Source of the DNA: Myxococcales bacterium
Lineage (GTDB): Bacteria > Myxococcota_A > Polyangia > Fen-1088
NCBI GenBank assembly: GCA_025350815.1
Contig: JANXXE010000126.1
Span: forward strand, 1 to 36,588
Reading direction: 5' to 3'
DNA length: 36,588 bases
The notes under the pieces: model-generated
What the model saw: only the letters and a program-made list of their open reading frames with translations
What the model was told of the DNA's origin: nothing
The model's database searches: none
Part shown: in pieces, positions 4,857-23,723 of the stretch
Position numbering within the stretch: the stretch's first letter is position 1
How the letters are laid out: each line of letters opens with the position of its first letter
Translations under genes and position numbers: made by a program

Positions 4857-6965
4857 TCAGGGTCCGAGGTGCGCCTCGGTCCAGTCCGGCTCCGCCTCGC
4901 ACACGGCCGGGTATTTCGTCATGCAGTAACGGTCGTGCCACCGGCGGCTGCGGCCGTCGATGACCAGGCAATCTTGGTTCCCGTCCAGGTTGTCGGGTTG
5001 TTGATCGTGAAACGCGGTGTAGCCGAACGGTTCGGCAGTCGTCCACGCGTAGGCACCCTTCACGCCGTCCGCCAGGTCGGTTGCGCCAATCCACAGGGCC
5101 TCGTGCGTGATGATGTCGCTGAAGACCGTCGCCTCGATGAATGCCTGTTCGGTCGCATCTCCCACCGTCGCCAGATGGATGCCCAGACGCTGGCAGCGCT
5201 CGCGCGCTTCTTGCCAGGTGGAAGGAACCGAAAGCACGCGGTATGAATGCCGCGTGACCGGCGATTCGTGCCATTGCGCGGTCTCGCAGATGTAGCTGTG
5301 CTGTTGCTCGCACCGCCGGGGCAGCCAGGCGCGGCCCGCTTCGATGCCCGCGGACACCACCAGGCAGGATTGCCGCGTTCCGGGACCCGTCGCTGCCCCA
5401 TGTTGGACACGGTCCCCCAAGAGATACGGCAACACCACCTCGCCGGTGGCCCATTCGTAGCCGCCCTCTCGCCCGCCGGCTCGCAGGCCCAGCCACGACG
5501 CCGACCGGGTCGACGCGGCTTTCACCAGGGCCTCGCACTCGACTGCGCTGGCACAGGTCGCGAGGAATCCACCCGTCGCCTGGCAGGCGTCGTCCGCCGC
5601 CAGCCAGTCAAGCGGTTGCTCGTACAATGTGAAACAGTGCCGAACGGCCGCGACGCCGTTGCCCTCGCAGTGGGCTGTACCGGGCGAGGGTGGGATCGGC
5701 AGCGTGGCAAGCGGGGCTGGGCGCGCCGGCGGCGCACGGGTGGCGGCGGCCGGCGCCTGGGTGGCCGCGCTCCGACCGTTGCCCACCTGCGCAGACGGTG
5801 CCCGCAACAGCCAAGCCGCCGCTGATGCGGTCGCCACCAGTCCGCCCAGTAGCAGCCAAAGCCCGCGTCTGGCGGGCAGTCGCGCTGGCGTGTCAACACG
5901 AGCCGCGTGTGTGAGTGCCGTCAACAGGTCGTCCATTGACGCGAATCGCTGTTCCGGCGTCCCCGCCAGGCCGCGCAGGACGGCCTCACGCACACCGTTG
6001 GGCGCCGGATCGTTTTTCGCATCCTCGCCCACCGGGGCGCCGGCGCTGGGCGTTTCGGCGCGGAACGGGTGATGCCCGAAAAGGCTCCAGTGCAGGGCCA
6101 CACAGAAGGCGAACTGATCGGACTTCGCGTCGGCGGTGCCCCGTCGGTGCTGTTCGGGCGCCATGAAGGCAGGGGTCCCCGCGGGTGCCGTCTGCAATGC
6201 GGTTAGTCCCGGATCGGACGGGGGCGCGCGATGCCCCCCCGGATACGAGGCGTCGCGTGCCAGACCGGTCGACCGTGCGAGGCCGAAGTCCGTCAATCGG
6301 GGAACGCCGTCGGCCCCGACCAGTACGTTGTCCGGCTTGAAGTCGCGGTGGATGATGTTCGCCGCATGGGCGGCGGCCAGGCCCCGGCCGGCTCCGATGA
6401 ACATGGCGAGAATTTCTCTCCAATGGCGCGGCCGTTCGGCCAGCCATTCCGTCAGTGTCACGCCCTGGATGTATTCGAGGACGATGAAGACCTGCCCGGC
6501 GAAGGTCCCTACGTCATGAATCAGAACGACATTGGGATGTGACAGCTTCGCCATCGCCTGCGCTTCCCTCAGCAGACCCAGCTGGGCCACGTCTTCCGAG
6601 ACGCCTTGGGCGGGATGGGAACGAAGCAGCTTCAGCCCCACGGTGCGATCGAGCTGGGGATCGTGCGCTTCGTACACCACGCCGCCCCTTCCCGAGCCGA
6701 CCGTTCGGGCGACCACGTACCTCGCCACGACGGTGCGTGGCGGCAGTATGCGCCCAACGGATGACGAGCCCCCGGCCCCGTCCCCTTCTCGAAACGGGAC
6801 CGGCTCCCCGGTGGCCGGTGACTGCGTTTCGAGCAGCGCAAGCTCGGCCACGGTCATTCGGCAGAGCATGCACGAGTCGACGTGTCGCTCGGCGAGGGCC
6901 CGCTCGTCCGGGGCCAGGGTGCCCCGCACGAACGCTTGCAGACCATCATCGGTCAAACACTCCAC
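4857..6965 (-). CDS. Transmembrane Ser/Thr kinase with anti-sigma-type zinc motif and two C-type lectin domains
   Basis: A 702-residue predicted receptor kinase. Residues 1-45 contain H28-x3-C32-x2-C35, the zinc-binding motif seen in anti-sigma factors. A Hanks-type kinase domain spans about 82-352, with the Gly-rich loop GSGRGGVV, Lys112, the HRD catalytic loop (H206-R-D208), DFG from D226 and the APE-like MAPEQ at 268-272, so it looks active. A single membrane helix (369-386) and a Pro/Ala linker lead to two C-type lectin-like domains at about 433-561 and 570-690. The second keeps a QPD triplet (656-658), the galactose-type calcium/sugar motif of the family, and a W-H-D in place of W-N-D (676-678). 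It converges with the lipoprotein gene and is divergent from the first DUF1592 gene across a 160-base spacer, suggesting it senses glycans outside the cell. Its substrate is unknown. Confidence 0.9.
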   Translation of the reverse strand: MECLTDDGLQAFVRGTLAPDERALAERHVDSCMLCRMTVAELALLETQSPATGEPVPFREGDGAGGSSSVGRILPPRTVVARYVVARTVGSGRGGVVYEAHDPQLDRTVGLKLLRSHPAQGVSEDVAQLGLLREAQAMAKLSHPNVVLIHDVGTFAGQVFIVLEYIQGVTLTEWLAERPRHWREILAMFIGAGRGLAAAHAANIIHRDFKPDNVLVGADGVPRLTDFGLARSTGLARDASYPGGHRAPPSDPGLTALQTAPAGTPAFMAPEQHRRGTADAKSDQFAFCVALHWSLFGHHPFRAETPSAGAPVGEDAKNDPAPNGVREAVLRGLAGTPEQRFASMDDLLTALTHAARVDTPARLPARRGLWLLLGGLVATASAAAWLLRAPSAQVGNGRSAATQAPAAATRAPPARPAPLATLPIPPSPGTAHCEGNGVAAVRHCFTLYEQPLDWLAADDACQATGGFLATCASAVECEALVKAASTRSASWLGLRAGGREGGYEWATGEVVLPYLLGDRVQHGAATGPGTRQSCLVVSAGIEAGRAWLPRRCEQQHSYICETAQWHESPVTRHSYRVLSVPSTWQEARERCQRLGIHLATVGDATEQAFIEATVFSDIITHEALWIGATDLADGVKGAYAWTTAEPFGYTAFHDQQPDNLDGNQDCLVIDGRSRRWHDRYCMTKYPAVCEAEPDWTEAHLGP

Positions 6966-7125: not shown

Positions 7126-8916
7126 ATGGGTTCAGGACGCCTCGACCACCCTCGACACTTTTTGAGGCGCATCGCGCCTGCCGTGGCCCTTGTCTGCCTG
7201 TCATGTACGGGTGATATCCAGCCGGCGGCCACCGATGGTCAGGGCGTCGGCCCCGATCGGCCGGGGATTGTGCCGATGCCGGGCGCGAAGCCGGTCGGAA
7301 CCGTTACCCAGCCGGGCAACCCCGGGTTCGGCCTGACGCCGGCCTTGCCGCCCGAGCGGGCCAGCAGCCCGTCGTGTAAGGCGGTCGAGCCGGGAGCCCA
7401 GGTCATTCGGCGTCTGACGCGCCTCGAATACAACAAGACCGTGCGGGACTTGCTTGGTTCTGACACGGCCCCCGCCACGGCCTTCCCGGCGGAAAACGTC
7501 GTCCACAGTTTTGACAACGAAGCGGTGTCGCTGACGGCTTCCCCTGAGTTGATCGAAGGCTATACAGACGCGGCCATTCGCCTTGCGACGGAGGCCGTCG
7601 ACACCAAGCTGAGCGCGATTCTCGGCTGCGATCCGGCAACCGTCGGCGAAGACGTGTGTGCCGGGAAGTTCGTCGATACCTTCGGCAAGCGTGCCTACCG
7701 GCGCCCGCTGACGGTCGAGGATCGCACGGTCCTGATGGACACGTACGCGCAGGGCAAAACGATCTCGGGATTCAAGGGTGGCATCCGCGTCGCCCTGGCG
7801 ACCATGCTGGGCTCGGTGCACTTCTTGTACCGGGTTGAATTTGGCGCCACGCCGAAGGCCGGGCAGACCGTCGCCAGTCTTACGCAGTGGGAGCTGGCCA
7901 CCAGGCTTTCCTACCTGATTTGGCGCACGATGCCCGATGCCACGCTGCTGGCCGCCGCGGAAGCCAACAAGCTTGGCACCCGCGACGAAATCGATGCGCA
8001 GGCGTCCCGCCTGTTGTCCGACCCGAAGGCCCGGGACACCGTGGCCGATTTTCACGAGCAATGGCTGCACCTGCGCGGCCTCGATGGACTGACCAAGGAC
8101 ACCAAGGTCTATCCCGCCTTCCACGCCGACACGCCGGGCCTGATGAAGCAGGAGACCCTGAAGTTTGTCGATCACGTGATCTGGGAGAGTGAGGGAACGT
8201 TGTCCCAGCTCTATACGGCGCCGTTCACCTTTGTGAACACGGCCCTTGCCCAGTACTACGGTCTGCCCGCACCGGTTGGCGCCGGCTTCCAGAAGGTGGC
8301 CGCCGACACGCAGGGCCGGGCGGGCTTCCTGACCCAGGGCGGGCTGATGTCGGTACTGGCGCAGGAGAATCAGACGCATCCCATTCGCCGCGGGGCCTAC
8401 GTCCGCAAGGAGCTGCTTTGCCAGACGCTGCAGCCGCCGCCCGATGGCGTGATGATCGTCTTTCCGCCCGTTGACCCCACCCTGACGGGCCGCGAGCGCT
8501 TCGTTCAGCACCGCGCCGATCCGAAGTGCGCAGCCTGCCACATGTTGACCGATCCCATCGGCTTCGGGTTAGAAACCTTCGACGGCATTGGGCAGTACCG
8601 TCAGAAGGAAAACGGCAAGACGATCGACACCACAGGCGATGTCGTGGGTCTCAAGGGTGGCGGCCAGTTCGCCGGCGCTGCCCAGCTGGGGGCCTTGTTG
8701 GCCAAGTCCGAGGAAGCTGGCGATTGCGCCGTCCTGGCCTGGTTCCGTTATGCCTACGGTCGCGACGCTGACAGTGTGGCCGACGCTTGCACGCTGGATG
8801 TGCTGAAGCGGACCTTCGCCGGCGCGAATTTCAAAGTGAAAGATCTGATCGCCGAATTGGCCAAGACCGACGCGTTCCAGTTTCGCCGCGTCATCACCCC
8901 GGGAGGTGCCCAGTGA
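7126..8916 (+). CDS. DUF1592-family exported protein, copy 1 (DUF1587/1595/1592/1588/1585)
   Basis: A 596-residue exported protein of the multi-DUF family first noted in planctomycetes. After a signal ending in LSCTG (possible lipidation) and a Pro/Gly-rich linker come DUF1587 (about 90-150, with [17 protein letters not shown]), DUF1595 (about 180-240, with [10 protein letters not shown]), DUF1592 (about 250-375), DUF1588 (about 395-495) and DUF1585 to the C-terminus. DUF1588 carries C468-x-x-C471-H472, a possible c-type heme site. The N-terminal cytochrome domain of many planctomycete relatives is absent. The biochemical function of the family is not established; polymer breakdown has been suggested from genomic context. 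The start follows GAAGGAG. The stop overlaps the GTG start of the DUF1552 gene, implying translational coupling. Confidence 0.9.
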
Positions 8917-10298
8917 ACCGCATGAATCGTCGCGCTGTGCTCCGAGGCCTCGCGGGCACATCAATCGCGCTGCCCTGGCTGGAAGCGATGAACATGCGCA
9001 AGGCGCATGCGGCGCCAGGGATGTCCGATACGGGATTTCCCAAGCGATTCATCGTGTGGGCGACCTGCAATGGCTTTCACCCGCCGATCTGGGATCCAAG
9101 CGGAGGCGAGACCGATTTCGTCATGCGTCCGGTGCACAAGGCGCTTGAACCGTTCAAGAAGGATCTGGTCATTGTGGCCGGGTTGAATGATGCCGCCTTC
9201 GGCGCCAGCCACGGCGATCTTCACTCGCGCGGCATGTGCACGTTCATGAGCGGGACCGAGTCCATCGTCAACGCCGCGGCCAACGGTGGGGCTTTTGGCG
9301 GCGAATCAAAGGCATCTGGCGGCATCACGCTCGACCAGGAAATCGTCAAGCGCCTGGCGCCCAATACCAAGTTCCCCTCGCTTGAGATGACCTTTATCGG
9401 TGCCGCCACGGGGCCGTATGGAACCACCAGCTATCTGGATGCGTCCAAGCCGCTGTCAGGATCGAAGGATCCGAACGCTGTTTTCAATCGACTGTTCTCG
9501 GGCGGCGCCGGGGGCGGCGCCTCGGCCGATCCAGCGACCGCCGCGCGCCTTGTGGCCGAGCGGCGCTCGATTCTGGACGGTGTCGGCAAAACGTATCAGG
9601 GATTGTTGCCCAAGCTCGGCATGGCCGATCGGGACAAGGTCGATTCGCATCTGACGCAGATCCGCGACCTCGAGAAGCGGCTGCAGGTGATGCAGCCGGC
9701 GCCCGCTGCGCCCGCCGGTAGCCCGGTGGGCGGCGCGACCGCGTGCCTGAAAGCGCCACCCGCCTCCAGCGCGTCGGACAGGCCCGCCCAGGCGGCCGCA
9801 TTTGTGGATCTGCTGGGGACGGCCATTGCTTGCGACCTGACCCGCGTTGCCACGATGCAGTGGGAGATGACCACGGGAAATTCCGTGTATTCGTGGCTGG
9901 GAATTTCTCGCGGGCATCACGACATGAGCCATGACGGCGACGAACGAAGCGACACAGTCGCCGAGTTGACGAAGATTCACACCTTCTACGTCGAGCAGTT
10001 GGCGCGTTTGGTCACCCGCCTGAAGTCCATTCCCGAAGGCAACGGAACCGCACTCGACAACACGATCATTCTGCACGTCTGCGACCTGGGGCGCGGCAAC
10101 AATGGGCACACGGGCACCAACAAGTTCCACATGTTACTGGGGCATGGCGGCGGCGCCCTGAAGAACGGAGGCCGTCTGCTACGCTATACTGGAGATGCCA
10201 ATAACAAGCTGTTTGTGTCGATCCTGCACATGTTCGACATTCCGGCCAACACCTTCGGCGATCCCTCGCTTTCGTCCGGCCCACTGGCGCGCCTGTAG
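8913..10298 (+). CDS. DUF1552-family Tat-exported protein, copy 1
   Basis: A 461-residue protein that begins with a twin-arginine signal (NRRAVLRGLAGTSIALPWLE), so it is probably folded in the cytoplasm before export, perhaps with a metal cofactor. The body has the DUF1552 layout: an early RFIVWATCNGFHPP strand, a middle helical region ending in LTQIRDLEKRL, and a late stretch with the RVATMQWE and SWLGISRGHHDMSHDG blocks and a C-terminal LGHGGG. DUF1552, like DUF1501, resembles the alkaline phosphatase/sulfatase fold, but no reaction has been assigned. The GTG at 8913 sits six bases after GGGAGG and overlaps the upstream stop; the ATG at 8922 is too far from that site. The long in-frame upstream extension to 8787 is rejected. 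Confidence 0.9.
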   Translation: MNRMNRRAVLRGLAGTSIALPWLEAMNMRKAHAAPGMSDTGFPKRFIVWATCNGFHPPIWDPSGGETDFVMRPVHKALEPFKKDLVIVAGLNDAAFGASHGDLHSRGMCTFMSGTESIVNAAANGGAFGGESKASGGITLDQEIVKRLAPNTKFPSLEMTFIGAATGPYGTTSYLDASKPLSGSKDPNAVFNRLFSGGAGGGASADPATAARLVAERRSILDGVGKTYQGLLPKLGMADRDKVDSHLTQIRDLEKRLQVMQPAPAAPAGSPVGGATACLKAPPASSASDRPAQAAAFVDLLGTAIACDLTRVATMQWEMTTGNSVYSWLGISRGHHDMSHDGDERSDTVAELTKIHTFYVEQLARLVTRLKSIPEGNGTALDNTIILHVCDLGRGNNGHTGTNKFHMLLGHGGGALKNGGRLLRYTGDANNKLFVSILHMFDIPANTFGDPSLSSGPLARL

Positions 10299-10308
10299 GT
10301 CCAACAAC

Positions 10309-11295
10309 ATGAAGTACCCTCTTCTTGTCCTGGTAATGACGGGCGTGTTTTGCGGCTGTTCGTCGGCCAGCAATTCATCCAAGGGGAATTCCCCACCCGC
10401 GACCGACGACAGCACGTCACAGGAAGTGGCTGACGCCCGCCCGGCGCAACCTGCGCCCAGCCCATCGGTGCCAGGATCGCCGGACGGCGGTGTGACGGCC
10501 ACTTCGGCTCCCGATGCCGCGGCACCGCTAAAGCCGGATGCCGCCGCTCAGGCCGCGGTCGACGCGGCGGCGGCTGACGTGGCTCCGACGGCTCCTTCAC
10601 CAGATGCGTTTTTCGGCGCCTCCCGTTGCCAGAGTGCCAATGTTCTTTTCTGTGAGGACTTCGAAAGCGGCACCCTGGATCCGACCAAATGGACCCTGAC
10701 CCAGACCGAGGCGTCGGTCGGCGTCGATTCCACAAAAGTGGCGCGCGGACAAAAGGGGTTTCACGTCAAGATCGTGAATCCCACGTCAGAGGTGTACCAC
10801 TTGGGCGCCATCACCACGGTCAAGACCTTTCCGGTGGCCGGACAGCGGCTGTTCGTTCGAGCCTTCGTGCAGCTTCCCGCGGTCAGCACCCATCGGCACT
10901 ACGGGGTCTTCCTGGCGGCCGGGAATACCCGCTACCACGTCGACGTGATTCCCGAATGGAACGCGCCGTATTTGCCCGCGAATTTCCGCCTGCTATGGGA
11001 CAAGGGGCCGGGTGGCGAGCCGCCGGCGACGTACGGAAAGCCCTGGACCCAGACGCCGCTCGGCCGCTGGGCCTGCTGGGAATGGGAGCTAAGGGGCACT
11101 AACAACGAGGTGCACTTCTCCATCGACGATGTCGATATTCCTGGGCTGAAGGTCGATGCGTCCATGAACTGGACGGCGCCGACCACCGCTCGCCTCCGTT
11201 TCGGGATTGAGTCCTTCCACGCCATGGACGCGGGGTTCAATCTTTGGATCGACGAAATTGCGGTCAGCGCCGAAAAGATAGGTTGCGTCCGGTAG
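10309..11295 (+). CDS. Lipoprotein with ConA-like (Cip1-like) beta-sandwich domain
   Basis: A 328-residue protein starting with a short signal ending in FCGCSS (Cys17, probable lipoprotein). Residues 20-105 are low-complexity, rich in Pro, Asp and Ala. From about 108 to the end is a beta-sandwich starting NVLFCEDFESGTLD and ending NLWIDEIAVS, the pattern of concanavalin-A-like domains of the Cip1/polysaccharide-lyase-like group. Two cysteines near the ends of the domain could form a disulfide. It follows the DUF1552 gene by 10 bases and is most simply the third gene of the first cassette. A role in binding or modifying a polysaccharide at the outer surface is inferred from the fold only. An in-frame start at 10195 is rejected because it lies inside the upstream gene and has no signal. 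Confidence 0.8.
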   Translation: MKYPLLVLVMTGVFCGCSSASNSSKGNSPPATDDSTSQEVADARPAQPAPSPSVPGSPDGGVTATSAPDAAAPLKPDAAAQAAVDAAAADVAPTAPSPDAFFGASRCQSANVLFCEDFESGTLDPTKWTLTQTEASVGVDSTKVARGQKGFHVKIVNPTSEVYHLGAITTVKTFPVAGQRLFVRAFVQLPAVSTHRHYGVFLAAGNTRYHVDVIPEWNAPYLPANFRLLWDKGPGGEPPATYGKPWTQTPLGRWACWEWELRGTNNEVHFSIDDVDIPGLKVDASMNWTAPTTARLRFGIESFHAMDAGFNLWIDEIAVSAEKIGCVR

Positions 11296-11373
11296 TCGCC
11301 GCCGCGCTGCACCCACCGTTCCGTGGTGTCTCACTCCCGGGGCGCCCCTGTCTTCTAGGTTGAGGGATTTCCC

Positions 11374-13077
11374 ATGAAAGCCAGCGTCGCACTGAGTCTC
11401 GCCGCGTCACTGACCCTCGCATGTTCGGGGTCGATCGAGCCGATGCCGGGCCCGCAGGCCGGTGGCCCTGCCGATATAGCGGGTCCGAGCATAGGAGGCT
11501 CGGGCGGTACCGGAAGTCCTTCCAAGCCCCCGGTTGGCGGCCCTGGCGGGGCTGCGCCCACACCCTCGGCATGCAAGCCCGCGGACCCGCTACCGGCCCC
11601 TCTCCGCCGGCTGACGCGACGCGAGTACAACAACACGATCGCTGACCTCATTGGCGACACGTCTGGACCTGCCAACAGCTTTTCGCCCGAAGCTGGGTCG
11701 ACTGGCTTCGACACCGCCGCCGATGGCGCCGCGCTGAACGACAAGGTCGTCGCCAACTACGCGACCGCGGCAGAAACGCTGGCCCGATCGGCGGCCAAAA
11801 ATCTCCCTGCACTCATGGGCTGCGACCCGGTCGCGATGGGAGAGCAAGCGTGTGCCACCCAGTTCATCGCCCGTTTCGGACGCCGCGTGTTCCGTCGACC
11901 CGTCAGCACCGACGAGCAGGCACGGTACGAGGCCTTGTTTGCGTCCAGCCGGCAGCTAGGCGGATTTGCAGCGGGCATCGAGGATGTCCTGCGCGCCTTC
12001 CTCATGTCGCCGCAGTTCTTGTATCGCGTGGAACTGGGCGCGGGCCCGGGTCCCCGCGCAGGTCTGACGAAGCTGTCACCCTACGAAATGGCCACCCGGC
12101 TGTCCCTCTTCTTTTGGGCTGCCGGCCCGGATGACGAATTGCTCAACGCCGCCCAGTCGGGGGGGCTGAACACGGTCGTCCAGATCAAGGCCCAGGCCCA
12201 GCGGCTCTTGATGCACGAAAAGGGCGGGCGCCTGGTTCGCGATTTCTACGATCAGTGGCTTGAGGCCGACGCCCTGGATTCACTGTTCCGTGGCGCCACC
12301 TTCACCCCGACCCTGGCCGGCAGTATGCGGCAGGAAATTCAGACCTACTTCGACCAGCTGATCCGCCAGCGAGGCGCTGGTTGGTCGGAGCTGATGACAA
12401 GCCGCACGAGCTTCGTCAACGACGAATTGGCGCGCCTTTACGAAATTCCGGGAATTACGGGTACGCAGTTCCGCGAAGTCATGCGCCAGGGTGACCGGCA
12501 TCGAGGCTTCTTGACGATGCCCGGGATTATGACATTGCGGGCGTTCCCCAACGAGGGTTCGCCTATTCACCGGGGCAAGTTCATCCGAGAGCAGGTCATG
12601 TGCGAACCGAAACTGATGCCACTCGCGGGAGTTGTCATTCCCAAGATCCCGCCGGCGGACGCAGGCAAGACATCAAGGCAGCAACTGGAGGAGAAGACGC
12701 AGGTCGTCGAGCCCTGCAAGACGTGCCACACTTTGATGAATCCACCTGGATTCGCTTTCGGAAAGTTTGACCAGGTTGGCGGTTGGCACGACGTCGACGA
12801 CCAGAAACGGCCCATCGACACCGCGGGGACGCTGTCCGGCACCGATGTCGACGGTTCCTTTCAGGGGCATGTCGAGCTGATCGAGCGCCTGGCCGGCAGC
12901 AAGCAGGCCAACGCCTGCGTGGGGAAGTTGTGGTTCCGTTACGCCGTGGCCCGCATGGAGACAGCGACGGATGACTGTACAATGCGGGATCTGTCAGACG
13001 CCTTCACGACCGCCAAGGGTGACGTAAGAAGTGTCATTCTTGGGCTCGCGACCTCGGACGCATTCCTTTACCGTTAA
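11374..13077 (+). CDS. DUF1592-family lipoprotein, copy 2
   Basis: A 567-residue paralogue of the 7126 gene product with the same order of DUF1587, DUF1595, DUF1592, DUF1588 and DUF1585 regions. The signal peptide ends in LTLACSG (Cys17, likely lipidated) and is followed by a Gly/Pro-rich linker. RRLTRREYNNTIADLIG marks DUF1587, FGRRVFRRPV marks DUF1595, and C448-K-T-C451-H452 in DUF1588 is the single possible heme site. The ATG has GAGGGA upstream. The 78-base spacer before it contains a ten-base palindrome (GGGGCGCCCC at 11339-11348) and no clear terminator, so it may be read through from the first cassette. Sequence divergence from copy 1 is large, suggesting an old duplication or separate acquisition. 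Confidence 0.9.
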   Translation: MKASVALSLAASLTLACSGSIEPMPGPQAGGPADIAGPSIGGSGGTGSPSKPPVGGPGGAAPTPSACKPADPLPAPLRRLTRREYNNTIADLIGDTSGPANSFSPEAGSTGFDTAADGAALNDKVVANYATAAETLARSAAKNLPALMGCDPVAMGEQACATQFIARFGRRVFRRPVSTDEQARYEALFASSRQLGGFAAGIEDVLRAFLMSPQFLYRVELGAGPGPRAGLTKLSPYEMATRLSLFFWAAGPDDELLNAAQSGGLNTVVQIKAQAQRLLMHEKGGRLVRDFYDQWLEADALDSLFRGATFTPTLAGSMRQEIQTYFDQLIRQRGAGWSELMTSRTSFVNDELARLYEIPGITGTQFREVMRQGDRHRGFLTMPGIMTLRAFPNEGSPIHRGKFIREQVMCEPKLMPLAGVVIPKIPPADAGKTSRQQLEEKTQVVEPCKTCHTLMNPPGFAFGKFDQVGGWHDVDDQKRPIDTAGTLSGTDVDGSFQGHVELIERLAGSKQANACVGKLWFRYAVARMETATDDCTMRDLSDAFTTAKGDVRSVILGLATSDAFLYR

Positions 13078-13105
13078 CCCACACGATGAGACGGGAGAGT
13101 TACCA

Positions 13106-14524
13106 ATGAGACTTCCGCGAAGGAATTTGTTGCGCGGGCTGGGGGGCGCATGCCTGTCTCTACCCTTCCTGGAGTCCGCAGGGCCAGCCTTCGGGGCAAC
13201 CACGCCGGCGCCCAAGCGTGCGCTTTTCGTCTTCACCAGCACCGGTAGCGTACGCAAGAACTGGAAGCCATCAGCGGTTGGAATGGATCCACCGCCGTCC
13301 CCGATTCTCAAGCCGCTGGCGACGCCTGAACTGAAGCCCTACCTGACCGTGCTGTCGGGAATCAATGCGGGCGCGGGCGGCGGAACCAATACCCATCTTG
13401 AGGGAATGGCTTGTTGCCTGACGGCCTCGGCGCTCAGCGGGGGCTACGCGACCGGAATCAGCATCGACACGGCGCTGGGCAACAAGTTCAAGGGCGTGAC
13501 GCCCTTCGAGTCGCTGCAGTTTGGCGTGAAGACGCGTAAACCACCGAACGGCTTTGGTGATTCGTTTATCACTTATCGAGATCGCGCCGGCGGCGGTGTC
13601 GAGGGCGTCTATCCCGAGGACAATCCGATCGCTATGTACGCCAAGCTGTTTTCCACCACAACGGGTGGTGGGGCAGGCGGGGCGCCGGTTCTGTCCCAGC
13701 AACTGGCCCGCAATCGCAGTGTGCTGGATTTCGTCGCCGACGAACACAAGCGAGTGGCCGCCTCGTTGAACGGTGCCGACCGGGCCCGACTGGAAGAGCA
13801 CTCCACGATGATACGGGCGCTCGAACAGAGCATGGTGGCCAATAGCATGCTCACCTGCGCCGCCCCCAAGCAGGGGATCGCGACCCTCAGTGATCCGGAA
13901 GCCGCTTCCAATTTCCGGGCAATCAGCGACATGAATATGGACATGATCGCAGCGGCGTTTGCGTGCGACCAGACGCGGGTGGCGACACTGCAGTACTCGA
14001 CCGGAGAATCCGGGCTGAACTGGGACGATGTCGACCCCGCGCTGAATTTCCGGGCCACCGCCGGACGGTCAACCGATAACGGCGTCGGGGCCGGTAAGGC
14101 CACTTCCTGGTGGCACGGGATTTCTCACATGCCGGATACCTGGGATCCCATCAATCCGAATGCCAGCGAAAAGCAGGCGCTGGAGGTCATTACGCGCATT
14201 CAGGCCTGGTTTGCCGAGCAGATTGGTTCATTGGCGCTTCGTCTGAAGAAGTACACAGACAAGGACGGCAAGTCGGTCCTCGACAATACGGTCATCTTCT
14301 GGACGACAGAAGTCGCACAGGGTGACCACGGCCGAAACGACATGCCGTTCACCGTGGTTGGTAACCTGGGCGGTGCCCTGAAGTCGAACATTCACCTGGC
14401 GTACAACGGCCGCCAGCATGGAGACGTCTTTGCGACCATTGGTACGGCGATGGGTCTGACAGGCTTCAATACCTTCGGCCGGCAGGGCTACACGCAGGGG
14501 CCGCTGACCGACTGGTTGAAGTAA
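13106..14524 (+). CDS. DUF1552-family Tat-exported protein, copy 2
   Basis: A 472-residue paralogue of the 8913 product. The N-terminus carries a Tat signal (PRRNLLRGLGGACLSLPFLE). DUF1552 blocks that can be recognised are RALFVFTSTGSVRKNW near the start, LEEHSTMIRALEQSM in the middle helical region, FACDQTRVATLQYS, WWHGISHMPD and a C-terminal FTVVGNLGGAL. The start at 13106 is set by GGGAGAG ten bases upstream; an upstream in-frame start at 13031 lies inside copy 2 of DUF1592 and lacks a signal at the right place. The 28-base gap to the DUF1592 gene supports one operon. It presumably works with that partner in the periplasm or at the outer membrane, though no reaction is known. Confidence 0.9.
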   Translation: MRLPRRNLLRGLGGACLSLPFLESAGPAFGATTPAPKRALFVFTSTGSVRKNWKPSAVGMDPPPSPILKPLATPELKPYLTVLSGINAGAGGGTNTHLEGMACCLTASALSGGYATGISIDTALGNKFKGVTPFESLQFGVKTRKPPNGFGDSFITYRDRAGGGVEGVYPEDNPIAMYAKLFSTTTGGGAGGAPVLSQQLARNRSVLDFVADEHKRVAASLNGADRARLEEHSTMIRALEQSMVANSMLTCAAPKQGIATLSDPEAASNFRAISDMNMDMIAAAFACDQTRVATLQYSTGESGLNWDDVDPALNFRATAGRSTDNGVGAGKATSWWHGISHMPDTWDPINPNASEKQALEVITRIQAWFAEQIGSLALRLKKYTDKDGKSVLDNTVIFWTTEVAQGDHGRNDMPFTVVGNLGGALKSNIHLAYNGRQHGDVFATIGTAMGLTGFNTFGRQGYTQGPLTDWLK

Positions 14525-14584
14525 CCCGGCCGGGCGACCTGCCTGGTTGCACCAGCGGTCCCCAGATGAGACAAATGGGATCCG

Positions 14585-15460
14585 GTGCCGCTCGCCCGTG
14601 TGTTCCTGGAACATCATGTCGTCGCGGATGCGCGTCCCGTCCCTAGTCAGGCGCTGACAAAGGCACTGCGCGATATGTGGCAGGCCGGGCAGACGGCCTG
14701 GCCGACCGTCCATCTTCCCGCCGAGGTGTTTGTGGCGCACGTGGCCGAGCGGGTGGTCGGCGGGGTCGAGGTGCTAGTGGCCTTGGCGATCATTCACGCC
14801 TCTGACCTGTATCTGGCCTGCGCCTGCACACACGCGGATCCCGTTGCCGTGGACGCGTTTCAGAAGCACTTCATCTTTCGCGTGATCCCGCCCGGCAAGC
14901 AGGTGTCGACGGGTTGGTCGGATGACGTCCGACAGATTGTGTGCGAGCGCCTCATCGTTGCGGCGCCCGGCGCGCAGCCCCGCATCGCACAGTACACGGG
15001 GCGTGGGCCTCTGCTGGCCTGGGTGCGAACCGCTGCGGCGCGCACCACCGTCAACATACGTCTTGCGCAACATGCGACGGAGAGCCTGGACGGGCACGGG
15101 GCTCTTGCCGCCAGGATGTCGGCGCCGGATCCTGACCTGTCCGTGTTGCGGCGCCACAGCCGCGAGTTTCGTCAGGCGTTCGAAGGTGCATTGACGCAGG
15201 TGTCCCCTGAGCAACGAAACGTCATCCGTTTTCACTTTCTGGAAGGTCTGACTGGGGATGTCATGGCCAAGATGTACGGCGTTTCCCGGCGCACCGTTCA
15301 CCGATGGATCGAGGAGGCCCGTAATAGCATCGTTGCGCTGACGCGAAAGGCGCTGGCGGACACCATGAAGACATCGCCTGATGATCTGGAAACCCTGATG
15401 CGTGTCCTGCAAAGCGATCTGGCCAGTACGGTCGTCCGCTACCTGGGCCCCGACAAGTAG
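14585..15460 (+). CDS. Sigma-70 factor of the Myxococcales paralogous family (Sig-70_gmx1-like)
   Basis: A 291-residue predicted sigma factor. The layout fits the large sigma-70 paralogous family of Myxococcota (TIGR03001 type): a poorly conserved N-terminal half, a region-2-like segment around 115-165 (GRGPLLAWVRTAAARTTVN) and a region-4 helix-turn-helix around 205-260 (SPEQRNVIRFHF, then GDVMAKMYGVSRRTVHRWI). It would direct RNA polymerase to a dedicated promoter set. The GTG start is the only reasonable one, since a stop codon lies 18 bases upstream in frame; GGGA precedes it. It is 60 bases after the second DUF1552 gene on the same strand, so may be co-expressed with, and may control, these cassettes. 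No anti-sigma partner lies next to it. Confidence 0.83.
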   Translation: MPLARVFLEHHVVADARPVPSQALTKALRDMWQAGQTAWPTVHLPAEVFVAHVAERVVGGVEVLVALAIIHASDLYLACACTHADPVAVDAFQKHFIFRVIPPGKQVSTGWSDDVRQIVCERLIVAAPGAQPRIAQYTGRGPLLAWVRTAAARTTVNIRLAQHATESLDGHGALAARMSAPDPDLSVLRRHSREFRQAFEGALTQVSPEQRNVIRFHFLEGLTGDVMAKMYGVSRRTVHRWIEEARNSIVALTRKALADTMKTSPDDLETLMRVLQSDLASTVVRYLGPDK

Positions 15461-15485
15461 CGGACGTTGGGCTCGTAGGGGTTTA

Positions 15486-16811
15486 TCAGTTGGCGGCGCT
15501 GCGGGCGACCGTCGCTTGCGGCGGCTTTTCGCCGTTCAGCAAGCGGTCGCGGGCGCTGCGCACGAGCGGCGCCACGTCGAAGCCCAGCGGCTGGCCCGCG
15601 TCGTACTTGCGCCGGGCTGAAACAATGGCCGCTTCCAGACCATCGGGTAACTTGTCTTTGCCGGTCTCGGGAATGGGGCGCCAGAAATCCATGTGCTCGT
15701 TGTAGAACCAAACGTATTCGTCCGCGCCCCCCATGGCGTTGTAAAGCTGACTTTCCAGGTAGCGAAGCTGTTCCCACCTGGTCAGGAAATCCGGGGGTAT
15801 CCAGCCCAATTTCTCGTGCGGCCAGTCGCCCATGATCCAATTTGGGAATACCGGCGTTCCCACCTGCACCTGCTGGCTGTATTTCTGCCACAATTCGGCT
15901 GGAACAATTGAACGGGCCCCTTCACGGATCAGTTTCCGCGCCCGCGCGAATTCAATATGGTCCGTGTAGTAGTAGGAATTCTCATTTCCGTCGACGAAAC
16001 GGACCCCTGGATTGGAGACTTCCAGCATTCCCATCATGAATTCGCCGAGCAGCGCGTACTTGTGACCCCGGTGGTGGAACGACGGCTGTCCGGGCACATC
16101 CGGCTGGTTCTCCCAGACGACCCATTTCTGATCGTTGGGGCCGATGTCGTAAAGCAGGCGCGCCAGCAGATGGAAATTGAGGAAGCGAACCGCCGGGGCC
16201 TCTGATTGCAGCGCCGCCATCACCTGCCGCCCGCGCAAGCGGACCTGACCGGGCAACTGCAACAGTCTGTCGACGGGATAGGTTCCCGGATAGAACCACG
16301 GGTTCGCGTCAGCACCCTCGATATCCTTGCCGTAGGGTTCGGGATCGAAGCAGACGCCCGCCAGGCGCCCATCCCGCACCAGGCGCGAGAACAGCTTCAT
16401 GTTGGCCACGATCGTGTCCCACTGCGGATCGTTGAACCAGTTCATCCGCTGGTGTTCGTTGGTGCCGTTGATGAACAGGAAGTTGTCCGTGAAACGCTGC
16501 CACTTGGTCGCGGCCAGCGCCTCGCGATCAGGGCGCAGGTCTTCTTCTTTCCACGGGGTGCTGTCGAACATGAACTGGTGCTTCGGCATCCGGATGACAA
16601 CACCGTCGAACGGTCGCTTTTCCATGTCGCGCACGTGCTCGCGCACGAAGGCGGGGTCCGGCGCGTCGTGGCCGTACTGGATAAGTTTTTTCCTCCGGGT
16701 GGCGTCGGGCGACGTACTGGGTGCCGGCGGCGTGGCCGCGCAACTGACCAAGGCGCTGGCCCCAGCCAGGCTCGCCGCAAAAATCACCAGGGATGTCGTA
16801 TGATTCACCAC
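15486..16811 (-). CDS. Large lipoprotein of unknown family, possible TIM-barrel glycoside hydrolase
   Basis: A 441-residue protein that I cannot place in a named family. A signal peptide ends in ALVSC (Cys24, lipoprotein) and a short Pro/Ser linker follows. The rest alternates beta strands and helices in a way that suggests a TIM barrel: DGVVIRM (69-75), GVCFDPEPYG (152-161), VRFLNFH, GVRFVDGNENSYYY and DEYVWFYNEHMDFW (364-377). Asp156/Glu158 and Glu372 sit at strand ends, where catalytic carboxylates of such glycosidases occur. This is inference, not a family match. It is the last gene of the third operon, 51 bases after the anti-sigma-like gene. Two adjacent GTG codons (16811 and 16808) follow GGAGG; the second has the better spacing. 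Confidence 0.75.
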   Translation of the reverse strand: MVNHTTSLVIFAASLAGASALVSCAATPPAPSTSPDATRRKKLIQYGHDAPDPAFVREHVRDMEKRPFDGVVIRMPKHQFMFDSTPWKEEDLRPDREALAATKWQRFTDNFLFINGTNEHQRMNWFNDPQWDTIVANMKLFSRLVRDGRLAGVCFDPEPYGKDIEGADANPWFYPGTYPVDRLLQLPGQVRLRGRQVMAALQSEAPAVRFLNFHLLARLLYDIGPNDQKWVVWENQPDVPGQPSFHHRGHKYALLGEFMMGMLEVSNPGVRFVDGNENSYYYTDHIEFARARKLIREGARSIVPAELWQKYSQQVQVGTPVFPNWIMGDWPHEKLGWIPPDFLTRWEQLRYLESQLYNAMGGADEYVWFYNEHMDFWRPIPETGKDKLPDGLEAAIVSARRKYDAGQPLGFDVAPLVRSARDRLLNGEKPPQATVARSAAN

Positions 16812-16862
16812 GCCTCCGGGACTCCCTATGCCGCCGCATGCAGCGGATCACGAGCGTGTCCC

Positions 16863-17846
16863 CTATTTTGCGTGGGCGGCCGTTACGCGAATGTCGTCGA
16901 TGTATAGCGGCCCGTCGGGGACGCGCCCGCCGGTGATGGTGATGTTCTCAATCGTGTCACCGGCCAATGCGGAATCGGGATTCAGCACGGGAAGTAGATC
17001 GGGTTCGCGAATGACGACATGTGTCCATGCACCAGTCGTGACACCCGCGAGTTTGGCCGAGTAGTTTCTGTGCCGGGTGGCGTTGTGGACCAAGACATTG
17101 ATTGGCGAGCCCTCGGCTACCCAGTAGTCGAACTCGATCGTGAGATCAGAGGACCACGTCAGGCTGAGCCTTTGGGTCACGACCCACACGCGAAACGTAT
17201 ATTCGCTCAGGGCGCCTTGCGCGCACAGGCTGCTGCCCGGCCGGGGCGGGCAGGTCGTAACCAGGCCGACTATCAATCCCCTCACTAGCGCGCCGCCTTC
17301 GTAGTCCTGCTCGTAGGTGCCGACCGCGTCAGCCTCGCCAGGGTCGGCGTGGGTTATGCCCTTAGTTGCCTGGTTGGCGGCGGGCGCCGTCCGAGCCTGG
17401 CGGGACCCCTGCAGTGGCAGGCCCCGCGATTCGGGGGCAGGCGCGCGCGGTGCGGTGGCCAACACGGTTTCTGTCGCCGCCTGCTTGGGGGGCGTCGCTG
17501 TCGTGCGGTGCCAGAAGGCCGCGGCCGCCAGGGCCATCGCGGAGGTGAAAAGGCCGACCGTCACGGCGGTCTTGCGCCGCCGCGCGACCGGCCGGCGCCC
17601 GTGCAGCTCCTGCATGACTCGATTTGCCAGGCGGCGCTCGCGCGACTGCTGGATTTGTTCCAGCACGGCAGGGCCCTGATCGGGCAGCTCACGCAACCCA
17701 CGCAGCGATGCCTCCATCCGGAGAGTGTCGACGAAAGTGGCCTCGCCTGCGTCGGAAGCTGACAGCAGACCCGCAAGCTCGGCCGCCTCGTCCGCCCCCA
17801 GTCCCCGATCAAGCAGGGTCTCGGTCAGTTCTTCAGCCCGATTCAT
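16863..17846 (-). CDS. Anti-sigma-factor-like membrane protein with outer jelly-roll domain
   Basis: A 327-residue single-pass membrane protein. Residues 1-90 are helical and acidic then basic, like the cytoplasmic sigma-binding part of planctomycete-type anti-sigma factors. A transmembrane helix lies at about 93-112, and a Pro/Ala/Thr linker leads to an outer beta-sandwich (about 165-325) with LTIEFDYWV, NATRHRNYSAKLAGV and a closing LYIDDIRV, resembling carbohydrate-binding jelly-rolls. Its ATG overlaps the ECF sigma stop by four bases (ATGA), a typical sigma/anti-sigma arrangement. The likely job is to hold the sigma factor until a ligand, plausibly a sugar polymer, binds outside. No zinc motif is present. 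Sigma binding itself is inferred from position and layout. Confidence 0.78.
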   Translation of the reverse strand: MNRAEELTETLLDRGLGADEAAELAGLLSASDAGEATFVDTLRMEASLRGLRELPDQGPAVLEQIQQSRERRLANRVMQELHGRRPVARRRKTAVTVGLFTSAMALAAAAFWHRTTATPPKQAATETVLATAPRAPAPESRGLPLQGSRQARTAPAANQATKGITHADPGEADAVGTYEQDYEGGALVRGLIVGLVTTCPPRPGSSLCAQGALSEYTFRVWVVTQRLSLTWSSDLTIEFDYWVAEGSPINVLVHNATRHRNYSAKLAGVTTGAWTHVVIREPDLLPVLNPDSALAGDTIENITITGGRVPDGPLYIDDIRVTAAHAK

Positions 17847-18418
17847 GCGTTCGCCATCCTACCCGTGACGCAGTCCTTTAGCACCTGCCGCGCCCGGAAT
17901 AGCAACTGCCGGGTCGCGCCCAGGCTGCGACCGATGCGTGCGGCCACCTGATCGAGAGAAAGGCCCTGCTCGTATCGTAGGGCCAGGGCCTCGTTTGCAG
18001 CCGGCTGAAGTTGCTGGCGGCAGTCGGCCATCGCTTTTTGGCGCGCAAATTGTTCGTCGTTGCCCGTCTCGTCTTCTTCGCCCAGGCTGGCCAGCACCGC
18101 CTGGTGGTAACGAGCCATTAGCTGATCTTTGCGGCCTGCCCCCCGCAACTCCATGCGGACCAGGTTGCGTGCGATGCCCCGCAGCCAGCGCCCCAGATCC
18201 TCACCCGCGCGGAATTGATCCAGGTGCTCGTACGCATTGACGAAGGCCTGCTGCAGCAGGTTCTCGCACGTCGCCCTATCGCCCAGTGTGGCCGATGCAA
18301 TCCACCAGACGCCGCGCTGGTGGCGGTTCAAGATCTCGCGAAATAGATGGGCCTCGCCGGAAAGGATCCGGCGCACCAGATCTCCGTCGGACAGCGACGA
18401 TGGCGGTTCGGTGGACAC
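17843..18418 (-). CDS. ECF-type RNA polymerase sigma factor
   Basis: A 191-residue ECF sigma factor. Region 2 lies at about 12-85 (GDLVRRILSGEAHLFREIL, then LLQQAFVNAYEHL and the promoter-binding WLRGIARNLVRMELR), and region 4 at about 130-185 (ALRYEQGLSLDQVAARIG followed by SLGATRQLLFRAR). It resembles the sigma factors of planctomycete and verrucomicrobial lineages that are paired with membrane anti-sigma proteins. The GTG start at 18418 is only two bases after the stop of the DUF1552 gene, and its own stop overlaps the anti-sigma-like gene, so it belongs to the third operon and probably activates it. The target promoter sequence cannot be identified from this window with confidence. Confidence 0.9.
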   Translation of the reverse strand: MSTEPPSSLSDGDLVRRILSGEAHLFREILNRHQRGVWWIASATLGDRATCENLLQQAFVNAYEHLDQFRAGEDLGRWLRGIARNLVRMELRGAGRKDQLMARYHQAVLASLGEEDETGNDEQFARQKAMADCRQQLQPAANEALALRYEQGLSLDQVAARIGRSLGATRQLLFRARQVLKDCVTGRMANA

Positions 18419-18420
18419 GG

Positions 18421-19875
18421 TTATGCGCGCAACCCCGCAACGGGGGTGGAAATGTCACCCAGCGGCGTGGTCACCCCGACGGCGTTCATGGCGGTGAACA
18501 CCACTTCGGCCGGGTGCCGCCCGCTGGCGACGATGTGACTGCCGCCGGCAAAACCACCGGCGTGCCCCCCGGTTACGACGATCATGTTCTCGGTCGAGTG
18601 GGCATCCACCGCACGGCCGGTTTCGGGGTCGAAGCCTTGTCCGCCCTCGAAGAACATGACCATGGCGGTGCAATCCAGCACGGTCTTGCCGTCGGTTTCC
18701 GGGAAACTGGCCAGACGCTTGGCCAAGGTGGCGAAGTGCTTGACGTGCCAGGCGACGCCATCGGCCATGTTGTCATTGTTGCCGCGGCTGTGCCCCATCT
18801 CGTGCAGATCGCTTTGCACGCCAATCAGCGGCACCATGCTCATGAAACACTGGGTCAGCGTGTACATGATGGACGCGACACGACTAAGGTTACACGCGAA
18901 GGCCATGGCGATGAATTCGTTGAGCACAGCCGCCCGCATTTCTTCGTTGCTGTAACCGGCGGTGGCCGTGAACGTCAGTTGGTCGCCTGAAATGCTGTGG
19001 TTCGCGCCGACGGGCGGGTCCGCTGCGGGATCGGCGGGGCGGCTGGTGCAGGACGCCCCTGGCGGGATCCCACCCGCAGCGCCCGTGGAGGCGGCCAATA
19101 CGCGTCCTTCAAGGTCGCGCAGTTCGTCGAAGTGTCGCTGCAATCGCAGCTTGTCCGCGCTGGATAGCTTCGGCAGCAGACGTTCGGTCTCGCCCTTGAC
19201 CAGGGACAGGACGCTTTTGCGCAGCAACTGATCTATGCTTTCCGCCGGCATAGCCGCCCCGGCTGGCGCGCCGAAGCTGGCGAACAGTGACTGGTAGGCC
19301 AATCGAGGGCTGACAATGGGATCCATCGATTTGCCGGCAAGCCCCGACGACAGCCGGCCGCGGTTGCCACCGGTGCCGCCCGCGTAGCTGACGGGTTGCA
19401 CCCGGTAAACCAGCGACTTCTGAATGGTCGTTCCGCCGATGGCCTCGGCCACGATTTGATCAGCGCTGGGACCGGTGGCGGCGGCGTCGCGGCTGGTGTG
19501 TTTGCGCCCGGTGGCCTGGGGCACCAAGGTGCCGCCGTGAAAGGCGGTGGTGCGTCCGCCCGGGGGCATGGTCCCATTCTCGATCCAGGGAACCTTCAGC
19601 TTGGACACCAGGCCAACGTGGCCGTGCACACCCAGGGTCGCGACAGGGGCCATGCCCTTGGTGCTTTCCCAGGCGGGGCCCGTGACCTTGGGCGGGATCG
19701 TCATGGGTCCGGCCCCGTCGTGGCCAAGCGAGCTGCCCCCGTAGGCCATCACGAATCGTGTCGGCGGCGCCGCGTACGCCTTTGTCGGCGTCATGATTTC
19801 CATCACGGGCAGTGCCACCCCGACGCCCCCCAACCCCCGGAGAACGGATCGACGACTCAGACGAAAAGGCGTCAT
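18421..19875 (-). CDS. DUF1552-family Tat-exported protein, copy 3
   Basis: A 484-residue third paralogue. The N-terminus has a Tat signal (SRRSVLRGLGGVGVALPVME). DUF1552 blocks include RFVMAYGGSSLGHDG near the start, LQRHFDELRDLEGRV in the middle helical region, MAFACNLSRVASIMYT, and LHEMGHSRGNND, equivalent to the His-rich GHHDMSHDG block of copy 1. The C-terminal VVTGGHAGG takes the place of the LGHGGG of copy 1. The conserved histidines and aspartates of these blocks are candidate metal ligands. ATG 19875 follows AGGAG with good spacing, nine bases after the DUF1592 stop. It is followed two bases later by the ECF sigma gene, linking structural and regulatory genes in one transcript. Confidence 0.9.
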   Translation of the reverse strand: MTPFRLSRRSVLRGLGGVGVALPVMEIMTPTKAYAAPPTRFVMAYGGSSLGHDGAGPMTIPPKVTGPAWESTKGMAPVATLGVHGHVGLVSKLKVPWIENGTMPPGGRTTAFHGGTLVPQATGRKHTSRDAAATGPSADQIVAEAIGGTTIQKSLVYRVQPVSYAGGTGGNRGRLSSGLAGKSMDPIVSPRLAYQSLFASFGAPAGAAMPAESIDQLLRKSVLSLVKGETERLLPKLSSADKLRLQRHFDELRDLEGRVLAASTGAAGGIPPGASCTSRPADPAADPPVGANHSISGDQLTFTATAGYSNEEMRAAVLNEFIAMAFACNLSRVASIMYTLTQCFMSMVPLIGVQSDLHEMGHSRGNNDNMADGVAWHVKHFATLAKRLASFPETDGKTVLDCTAMVMFFEGGQGFDPETGRAVDAHSTENMIVVTGGHAGGFAGGSHIVASGRHPAEVVFTAMNAVGVTTPLGDISTPVAGLRA

Positions 19876-19884
19876 GAATTTCTC

Positions 19885-21570
19885 CTATTCCTCGCGGCGG
19901 TGAACGAAGGTGGGCGAGCCGATGAGATCCAGCATCAGCGTGTCGAAGCGGAAATCCTTCTTTCCGGCGCGATCTGCCAGACGCGCAACCAGCGCGCGGT
20001 CGAGGTCGTCCAGGTTTGTGCGGCCGCTGGCGAAACGGTGCAGCTGTTCCACGACGCACGAATTGAGCAAGCCGGCCTCGAGCGCCCGGGCGGCAAGCTC
20101 GGCCGGACCCTTGAAGCGGCCGACGCCCACAATCTCGCCTTCGCCCGAGATGGGGCATTCGGGATGGTCGGCCTCAGTGGTACGGAAGCGGCCTTCCTTG
20201 TCATAGGCTTCGAGGCCAAATCCGACGGGGTCGATTTGATCGTGGCAGCCGCGACACCCGCCCTGATCGTGAGCCGCGTACCGCGTCTTCTTGCACGCGT
20301 CGGCGCCAACGGCGGGCGGTACGTTGTCGGTGTTCACGCCAGGCGGGGGCGGCGCGATGGGCTGACAGAAGAGATTTCGCCGCACGAAGAGCCCACGCAT
20401 GGTCGGGCTGGAATCATTGGCCTTTGTGCCCACCTGCAGGAAGCTACCTTGCGACAGCAGCCCGCGCCGGCCGCTTGGCCCCCACTTCACCCACTGGGGC
20501 TGCGTGCCGCCCGGCCCGGTGATGCCGTAGTGTTTGGCCAGCGCATCGCCGACGAAGGTTTCGTCCATGCGAAAGATGTCCTGCCAGGGGCGGCGGTCGT
20601 CGAAGATCACGCGTTCGATCAGGGCGCCGGTCTCCGTGCGCATGGCATCGGCCAACTCGGGCGCTTGCTTGAGTTCTTCGAAGCCAATCCACATGGCGTG
20701 AAAGCGCTTGATGCGGTCGCGGGCCCGGGGATCGGTGAGCATGTCGGTGGCTGCCGCGCGAACGGCGTCGGGCGTTTCCAGGCGCTTGCGGTCCGCGAGA
20801 TCGAAGAGCGCAGCACTGGGCATGCTGCCCCACAGCAGGTACGACAGTCGGGCTGCGACCTCATCGTCGGACAGCTTGTAGATGCCAGGCTGTCCGGCGA
20901 CGGGGGTTCCCAGTTCGATCCGATGCAGGAAGGAGGGGTGTTGCAGGAAAGCCCGCACCACGGCGTTGACGCTGACGTAGAAGTCGTTGGCCATCTGCCC
21001 GAGCGAGCCCAGGGTCAGGAAGCGCGTCACTTCATCGTCGGCGAGTGGCCGTCGCAAGGCGCGGCGGCCGAAGCTGGTCACGAAGGACTTCAGGCAGGCG
21101 TCGTCCTTGGCGCCGGCAGGCTGGCACCCTACGACGCGCGCGCGGCGCGTGGTGTCCTTGAGCAGCCGCCCGGTGGCGTCGGCGGCCAGCAACTCGACCC
21201 CTTCGACCAGGGTCTTCGAACTGGTCTGGTTAGTATAGTCGTTGTCGAATGGGGTGCGCGAGTCGTCCGGCAGGACCAGGTTGCTGCCCCCGGCCGGATC
21301 GCCCAGCAGATCGCGCACCGTCGCGTCGTATTCGGCCGCGCTGAGGCGTCGCATGCCGGCAGGAGGCGTCATATCAACGGTCGGCGCCGCCGCGGTGGGT
21401 ACGGGCGCCACGCCGGGCGTGCCCCCGGTGCCCGATGGCCTTCCTGGGCCTGGCGCGGCCGAGGCTAGACCCGTCGCGGGGGTGTCGCCAATGACGCCTG
21501 TGCAGGAGCCGCCAGCCAGAACAAGAAATACAAACGACCAGGGCCGTGAGACGGCAGGAATTAGGCGCAT
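19885..21570 (-). CDS. DUF1592-family exported protein, copy 3
   Basis: A 561-residue third paralogue leading the reverse-strand operon. The signal peptide ends in AGGSCTG (Cys23, possible but imperfect lipobox), then a Pro/Ala/Gly linker. RRLSAAEYDATVRDLLG marks DUF1587, FGRRALRRPL marks DUF1595, a central DUF1592 region follows, and C439-R-G-C442-H443 in DUF1588 is the only CxxCH. DUF1585 ends the protein. The predicted start has a perfect AAGGAGG four bases from being adjacent to the ATG, but this site is buried in a long hairpin in the leader, so translation of the operon may be controlled there. Function is unassigned, as for the other copies. Confidence 0.9.
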   Translation of the reverse strand: MRLIPAVSRPWSFVFLVLAGGSCTGVIGDTPATGLASAAPGPGRPSGTGGTPGVAPVPTAAAPTVDMTPPAGMRRLSAAEYDATVRDLLGDPAGGSNLVLPDDSRTPFDNDYTNQTSSKTLVEGVELLAADATGRLLKDTTRRARVVGCQPAGAKDDACLKSFVTSFGRRALRRPLADDEVTRFLTLGSLGQMANDFYVSVNAVVRAFLQHPSFLHRIELGTPVAGQPGIYKLSDDEVAARLSYLLWGSMPSAALFDLADRKRLETPDAVRAAATDMLTDPRARDRIKRFHAMWIGFEELKQAPELADAMRTETGALIERVIFDDRRPWQDIFRMDETFVGDALAKHYGITGPGGTQPQWVKWGPSGRRGLLSQGSFLQVGTKANDSSPTMRGLFVRRNLFCQPIAPPPPGVNTDNVPPAVGADACKKTRYAAHDQGGCRGCHDQIDPVGFGLEAYDKEGRFRTTEADHPECPISGEGEIVGVGRFKGPAELAARALEAGLLNSCVVEQLHRFASGRTNLDDLDRALVARLADRAGKKDFRFDTLMLDLIGSPTFVHRREE

Positions 21571-23708: not shown

Positions 23709-23723
23709 TCGTCGGTCCGACCG

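Follow-up and report, generated by a model that had tools for sequence, protein, structure and literature searches.

What do paired genes of the DUF1592 and DUF1552 families do, and do several such pairs lying together form a single system? Both questions are raised by positions 7126 to 21570 of a 36,588-nucleotide stretch (contig JANXXE010000126.1, referred to here in its full length as the window) from the Myxococcales bacterium assembly GCA_025350815.1. Three DUF1592-DUF1552 pairs lie in this interval, A and B on the forward strand and C on the reverse strand, each strand also carrying a sigma factor gene, and the first-pass annotation had read them as one dedicated, self-regulated and undescribed system for an extracellular polymer. 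The explanation that we favour, and to which we give an even chance, is that the pairs are extracytoplasmic redox modules, inducible and partner-specific, that act on carbohydrate polymers. Each pair would be a two-component exported redox enzyme, the cognate partners of which act jointly on an extracytoplasmic polymer or glycoside.

Pfam searches found complete DUF1587-1595-1592-1588-1585 modules in three window proteins and DUF1552 in their three partners, all far over the cut-off, confirming the two forward pairs and one reverse pair described earlier. The forward set runs DUF1592 A (7126..8916), DUF1552 A (8913..10298), a Cip1-like gene (10309..11295), DUF1592 B (11374..13077), DUF1552 B (13106..14524) and a Sig-70_gmx1 sigma factor gene (14585..15460). 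The reverse set runs DUF1592 C (19885..21570), DUF1552 C (18421..19875), an extracytoplasmic function (ECF) sigma factor gene of the Sig-70_gvs1 type (17843..18418), a gene for a transmembrane anti-sigma-like protein (16863..17846) and one for a 441-aa protein (15486..16811), with intergenic gaps in this order of 9, 2, -4 and 51 bp. The Cip1-like and 441-aa genes were missing from the first-pass annotation, as was a kinase gene at 4857-6965, which lies outside its interval.

The pairing is a general property of the two families. In the genome, which is 97.7% complete, DUF1592 was matched 25 times, once only in part, and DUF1552 24 times; this gives 24 pairs, most of them single and scattered. 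For the genome scan a six-sequence set was used, since an alignment of the full set of 24 DUF1592 paralogues proved too diverse. Relatives in the same family have up to about 40 pairs per genome. At 79 of 80 loci of named genomes, mostly from Myxococcota but also from Planctomycetota, Verrucomicrobiota and Acidobacteria, DUF1552 adjoins DUF1592, and the 80th ends at a contig edge. Within the one genome, distances among the DUF1592 paralogues follow those among their DUF1552 partners (Mantel r = 0.91, 0/5000 permutations; 0.84 when close copies are removed), the pattern to be expected of proteins that each act with a specific partner. This co-evolution of partners supports the earlier view of the pairs as divergent units.

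The DUF1592 half has the features of an exported haem protein. All three window proteins carry a signal peptide followed by a Cys-Ser/Thr-Gly site, which in DUF1592 A is a lipoprotein-like Cys-Thr-Gly, and each has one haem c motif: CAACH in A (8527..8541), CKTCH in B (12715-12729) and CRGCH in C (20256-20242). Since a haem motif is present in 107 of 107 DUF1592 relatives (CxxCH in 101, CxxxCH in 6), the family is classed here, from its sequences, as c-type cytochromes; the second Cys and the His of the motif (Cys471/His472 in DUF1592 A) are invariant among these relatives, and cytochrome-assembly genes were found in the genome. The domain order DUF1587-1595-1592-1588-1585, together with CxxCH in DUF1588, places the window proteins in the PSCyt3/PSD (DUF1592) family. 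In the mechanism that we propose, DUF1592 would be a surface-anchored c-type cytochrome whose haem carries electrons. An AlphaFold2 model of DUF1592 A (pLDDT 83, pTM 0.81) found no relative in the PDB by fold (best E 2.5), nor did the sequence, and DUF1592 therefore probably has its own, so far unsolved fold. Homology to DUF1549/1553 was rejected, the match being C-terminal alone and weak, and to DUF1553 at most weak. The motif variant CxxxCH replaces CxxCH in the DUF1592 proteins of loci L022 and L025, and likewise at L086, L087 and L100.

The DUF1552 half carries an export signal as well. The three window proteins begin with twin-arginine translocation (Tat) signals (MNRRAVLRG in A, MRLPRRNLLRG in B, LSRRSVLRG in C), 99% of 108 relatives share the twin arginines, and TatC was found in the genome. 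With PF07586 over the cut-off, the Tat signal and the conserved histidines of the HxxSH region, these proteins belong to the DUF1552 (HXXSHH) family, the PF07586 match of DUF1552 C beginning only at profile position 70. H104, D141, H336, H340, D382 and H399 (ORF numbering, DUF1552 A from 8913) are nearly invariant. The leading structure matches to the AlphaFold2 model of DUF1552 A (pLDDT 77, pTM 0.77) all belong to the alkaline-phosphatase/sulfatase superfamily, with modest scores (best E 1.5e-4, TM-score ~0.4); the DUF1552 profile also matches that of DUF1501 (96% probability, E 1e-9). The modelled fold is alkaline-phosphatase/sulfatase-like, and DUF1552 would be exported folded, its conserved His and Asp residues probably binding metal.

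Are the three pairs one system? Identity among A, B and C is 28-35% for DUF1592 and 26-30% for DUF1552, and their closest relatives lie elsewhere in the genome: those of A on contigs C25, C76 and C3 (69-82% identity) and that of B on C183 (56/71% identity), while C has relatives of 41-50% identity only. That the three pairs arose by tandem duplication is rejected on the grounds of the 26-35% identity and the closest relatives elsewhere. Beside the B-type pair of C183 (locus L030) stands a 58% paralogue of the Cip1-like gene; the 441-aa gene has paralogues too, one of 58% by the A-type pair on C25 and another next to the ECF gene of C42. By this comparison, neighbour genes move together with the pair that they accompany. 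The window seems to be an assembly of three such units, and a dedicated three-pair system is not borne out, given 24 pairs in the genome and the closest relatives of A, B and C elsewhere. The 441-aa protein itself, the last of the reverse operon, is lipoprotein-like with a conserved D-x-E-P-Y motif; it belongs to no known family, Pfam and the PDB giving no match.

The regulation of pair C is more coherent. As the first-pass annotation had it, the reverse set runs on into an ECF sigma factor (TIGR02989, 125.0 bits, cut-off 124.55) and a downstream anti-sigma-like protein with a cytoplasmic N-terminus, one transmembrane stretch (residues ~93-111) and an extracytoplasmic beta-rich C-terminal domain. 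Of the seven gvs1-type ECF genes in the genome, four are no more than 2.5 kb from a pair; that distance takes in 4.3% of the genome, and the excess over chance has a P of about 1e-4. The layout DUF1592-DUF1552-ECF-anti-sigma is found in the window and on C76, and ECF-anti-sigma-DUF1592-DUF1552 on C3 and C157; a second gvs1 ECF gene of C3 lies 8 kb from a pair and adjoins a Cip1-like gene. The C42 ECF gene has DUF1549/1553 and DUF1501 downstream, and that of C149 (locus L036) is followed by a FecR anti-sigma gene and then by an MGH1/GH63-like glycoside hydrolase gene. The anti-sigma proteins have the transmembrane stretch and outer C-terminal domain in common, and paralogues also carry FecR or Laminin_G_3 (LamG). 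The window operon combines a TIGR02989 ECF with a transmembrane anti-sigma of this FecR/LamG kind; the window copy has the sensor domain only, without a detectable FecR domain, this C-terminal domain being common to FecR-type anti-sigma proteins. No relation between the sensor domain and Cip1 was detected.

The same arrangement occurs well outside the Myxococcota. In four genomes, two of Planctomycetes and two of Verrucomicrobia, an anti-sigma gene of the FecR/LamG kind follows 20 of the 20 ECF genes examined, with PSCyt genes nearby in 10, and Neorhodopirellula (locus L181) has ECF-anti-sigma-DUF1592-DUF1552. Pair C, the ECF gene and the transmembrane anti-sigma gene form one predicted operon, of a type that by gene order recurs in the genome and in Planctomycetes and Verrucomicrobia. 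The operon, with the lipoprotein gene as a further member, would be switched on once the outer domain of the anti-sigma protein binds a signal, probably a carbohydrate. Among 284 Myxococcota genomes (12 candidates scored per genome) this is the sole one with a match to the gvs1-type ECF family at E 1e-30, and its seven ECFs group in the tree with those of Planctomycetes and Verrucomicrobia at moderate support (85/86), which suggests transfer of the ECF between phyla. The first-pass annotation had reckoned that pairs lacking sigma genes in close relatives would speak against its proposal, and in three family relatives no high-scoring gvs1-type ECF gene adjoins or lies near any of the pairs listed. 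On C66, a FecR-like protein with a transmembrane stretch, just under the Pfam cut-off, is encoded between two DUF1592-DUF1552 pairs (L023:6383-7957), and no ECF gene was found beside it.

The forward set ends, as described earlier, in a Sig-70_gmx1 sigma factor (TIGR03001, 207.6 bits, cut-off 154.6). Two further gmx1 genes in the genome do not adjoin pairs, and at 16 of 21 gmx1 loci the gene adjoins a Ser/Thr kinase gene, mostly with a zf-HC2 finger. On these grounds, a specific role of gmx1 in regulating DUF1592 pairs generally is rejected. In the window such a kinase is present but 7.6 kb distant: the reverse-strand gene at 4857..6965 encodes a zf-HC2 anti-sigma-like finger, a Ser/Thr protein kinase domain, a transmembrane stretch and two C-type lectin domains, and is 35% identical over its full length to the kinase next to the gmx1 gene of C202, which also has two C-type lectin domains. 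It is probably the partner of the window gmx1 sigma factor. The A-Cip1-B operon sits between the two, and A, B and X122/Cip1 would form a second operon that is probably under their control. The earlier notion of self-regulation thus holds up for sigma/anti-sigma control of pair C, as suggested by the operon layout and its recurrence, including that in Neorhodopirellula, and less well for the forward sigma factor, which is kinase-linked in most relatives. At the C202 locus (C202:45500-58500, L118), the genes flanking gmx1 and the lectin kinase encode a two-CxxCH cytochrome (CBB3, weakly matching SoxA/TsdA) and a type I phosphodiesterase; here, too, a cytochrome lies close to a protein of the alkaline-phosphatase superfamily.

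A more sceptical account holds that the clustering is an accident of rearrangement that collected unrelated modules, and that the sigma genes control other genes; it is compatible with any biochemical reading. The closer paralogues that A, B and C each have elsewhere, the unit formed by gmx1 and kinase in most relatives and the apparent origin of the gvs1 ECFs in the Planctomycetes-Verrucomicrobia-Chlamydiae group all fit this account. We nevertheless judge it unlikely, since pair C and the ECF gene are laid out as one operon and operons of this type are found again at several loci and in other phyla.

Clues to the substrate come from fusions and neighbours. A 2157-aa protein encoded on a Pseudoalteromonas plasmid joins three copies of CBM26, a starch-binding carbohydrate-binding module (CBM), to a glucose/sorbosone-dehydrogenase (GSDH) domain, a cytochrome c and the whole DUF1592 module, and DUF1552 is encoded next to it; cytochrome c with DUF1587...DUF1585 is the arrangement of locus L122, the window DUF1592 proteins being without an extra cytochrome. 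In Cbp2D, TERTU_2913 and TERTU_3803, the C-terminal module X132 contains a CxxCH and begins with DUF1587 (PMC8981238 Fig. 1; PMC10916295 Fig. 1, where it is printed as DUF1687), and cbp2D is important in growth on insoluble cellulose (PMC12542752). Going by these published domain annotations, the DUF1592 module is very probably X132 of Cbp2D/TERTU_2913. The jelly-roll protein encoded between A and B has a lipoprotein-like signal, and its profile matches Trichoderma CIP1 (3zyp) at E 7e-18, 8q28 ('Gluconolactonase domain protein') at E 6.8e-6 and 8q2a ('Putative lipoprotein') at E 0.0024; the latter two are probably Teredinibacter turnerae TtX122A/B, as their name and length fit the X122 constructs of PMC10916295. 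These matches place it in X122/Cip1 and identify it, at the level of profiles, with the X122 (Cip1) module of those cellulose redox proteins, so that X122 and X132, fused in Cbp2D-type proteins, would be neighbouring genes here. The carbohydrate link proposed earlier is strengthened by the CBM26/GSDH fusion and the Cip1/X122 neighbour gene.

Several points weigh against carbohydrate redox modules under sigma control. We know of no reaction for any DUF1592 or DUF1552 member. A sigma gene lies nearby for only a minority of the pairs, and a search of low power for a shared ECF promoter motif found none, shuffled sequences doing equally well. The putative pyrroloquinoline quinone dehydrogenase and X122 domains of T. 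turnerae had no activity alone (PMC10916295). Finally, the DUF1592-DUF1552-cytochrome c'-cytochrome b561 operons of Sphingobium plasmids adjoin Rieske, flavin monooxygenase and acyl-CoA dehydrogenase genes and not those of carbohydrate-active enzymes, and the substrate therefore need not be a glycan. Together with a TonB receptor gene, this context favours oxidation of small hydrophobic or aromatic molecules (terpenoids, steroids, lignin-type compounds), the carbohydrate modules being lineage add-ons. That, too, strikes us as improbable in view of the CBM26/GSDH fusion, the X122 neighbour and the glycoside-hydrolase-like gene beside the paralogous ECF module of L036.

Quite unlikely, in our estimate, is that DUF1552 is an ordinary sulfatase/phosphatase-like hydrolase which DUF1592 merely anchors or stabilises, with no redox catalysis. 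The fold class of DUF1552 would suit such an enzyme, and sulfatase genes are often found near PSCyt genes in Verrucomicrobia (PMC5615132), but the conserved haem motif, the fusion to cytochrome c and a sugar dehydrogenase and the operon with cytochrome b561 all argue for redox chemistry; moreover, where the sulfatase nucleophile is expected, DUF1552 has a His conserved at 0.91, the position being judged by eye. Very little credence goes to electron donation to copper lytic polysaccharide monooxygenases (LPMOs), as proposed for Cellvibrio Cbp2D. In its favour, the X183 domain of Cbp2D, whose C-terminal neighbour X132 is very probably the DUF1592 module, reduces LPMOs (PMC8981238), but such donation is unlikely here because no LPMO_10 match was found in the 97.7%-complete genome with its 24 pairs (fungal-type LPMO families were not searched), and the X183 domains of T. 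turnerae failed to drive its LPMO (PMC10916295).

Returning to the preferred carbohydrate redox modules, how new are they? The planctomycete PSCyt/PSD modules (PSCyt3 group; PMC5615132, PMC2754498) share the domain set, the conserved neighbour of a second family, the many copies per genome and the ECF association; by contrast, the locus studied here has free-standing lipoprotein-like DUF1592 proteins, a relative of the myxobacteria as host, three different pairs together and a second, gmx1/kinase sigma system. A link between ECFs and PSCyt genes was proposed by Studholme et al., according to the citation in PMC2754498. The X132 proteins of Cellvibrio japonicus (Cbp2D) and T. turnerae (TERTU_2913/TERTU_3803) are alike in the N-terminal DUF1587 of the CxxCH-bearing module and in its association with X122/Cip1 and sugar-dehydrogenase/lactonase-like domains; they are long fusions, some CBM-bearing, whereas here the genes are separate, with DUF1552 as partner and without a CBM in cis. 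The DUF1549/DUF1553-DUF1501 (PSCyt2) pairs likewise combine a cytochrome with a Tat-exported alkaline-phosphatase-like partner and have the same ECF-FecR/LamG regulators (C42, C76), but consist of different domains. The biomass-sensing RsgI anti-sigma factors of Clostridium thermocellum (PMC12203970) are alike in principle, with a substrate-sensing outer domain, and unlike in sigma family and sensor, a resemblance only. 'Undescribed system' is consequently too strong a term: the families are known, with their chemistry unexplained, and what is new is the combination of parts and the partner-locked co-evolution.

Such pairs occur by the dozen in single genomes and across several phyla; the ties to X132/X122, a co-evolving partner and named sensor-sigma systems offer a testable handle on inducer, operon and pair. 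More tentatively, DUF1592-DUF1552 may represent a new class of extracytoplasmic redox enzyme made of two proteins, its partner-locked pairs diversified for different polymers under sugar-sensing anti-sigma and lectin-kinase switches, with X132 of Cbp2D as the haem half and DUF1552 as the overlooked catalytic half of bacterial oxidative polysaccharide attack. Were DUF1552 the catalytic half, this would help to explain the role of Cbp2D-type proteins in bacteria.

Elsewhere in the window, the reverse-strand gene at 21690-23480 encodes a very Cys-rich protein with many CGGxGQPCC-type repeats, preceded by a lipoprotein-like signal and a Gly/Asp-rich linker. On the forward strand, the product of 23691-26498 is a sulfatase that has a MopE-type metal-binding motif and, at its N-terminal end, about ten transmembrane helices, and that of 3705-4835 is a secreted protein whose last part is a MYXO-CTERM-like GC...RRRRR tail.

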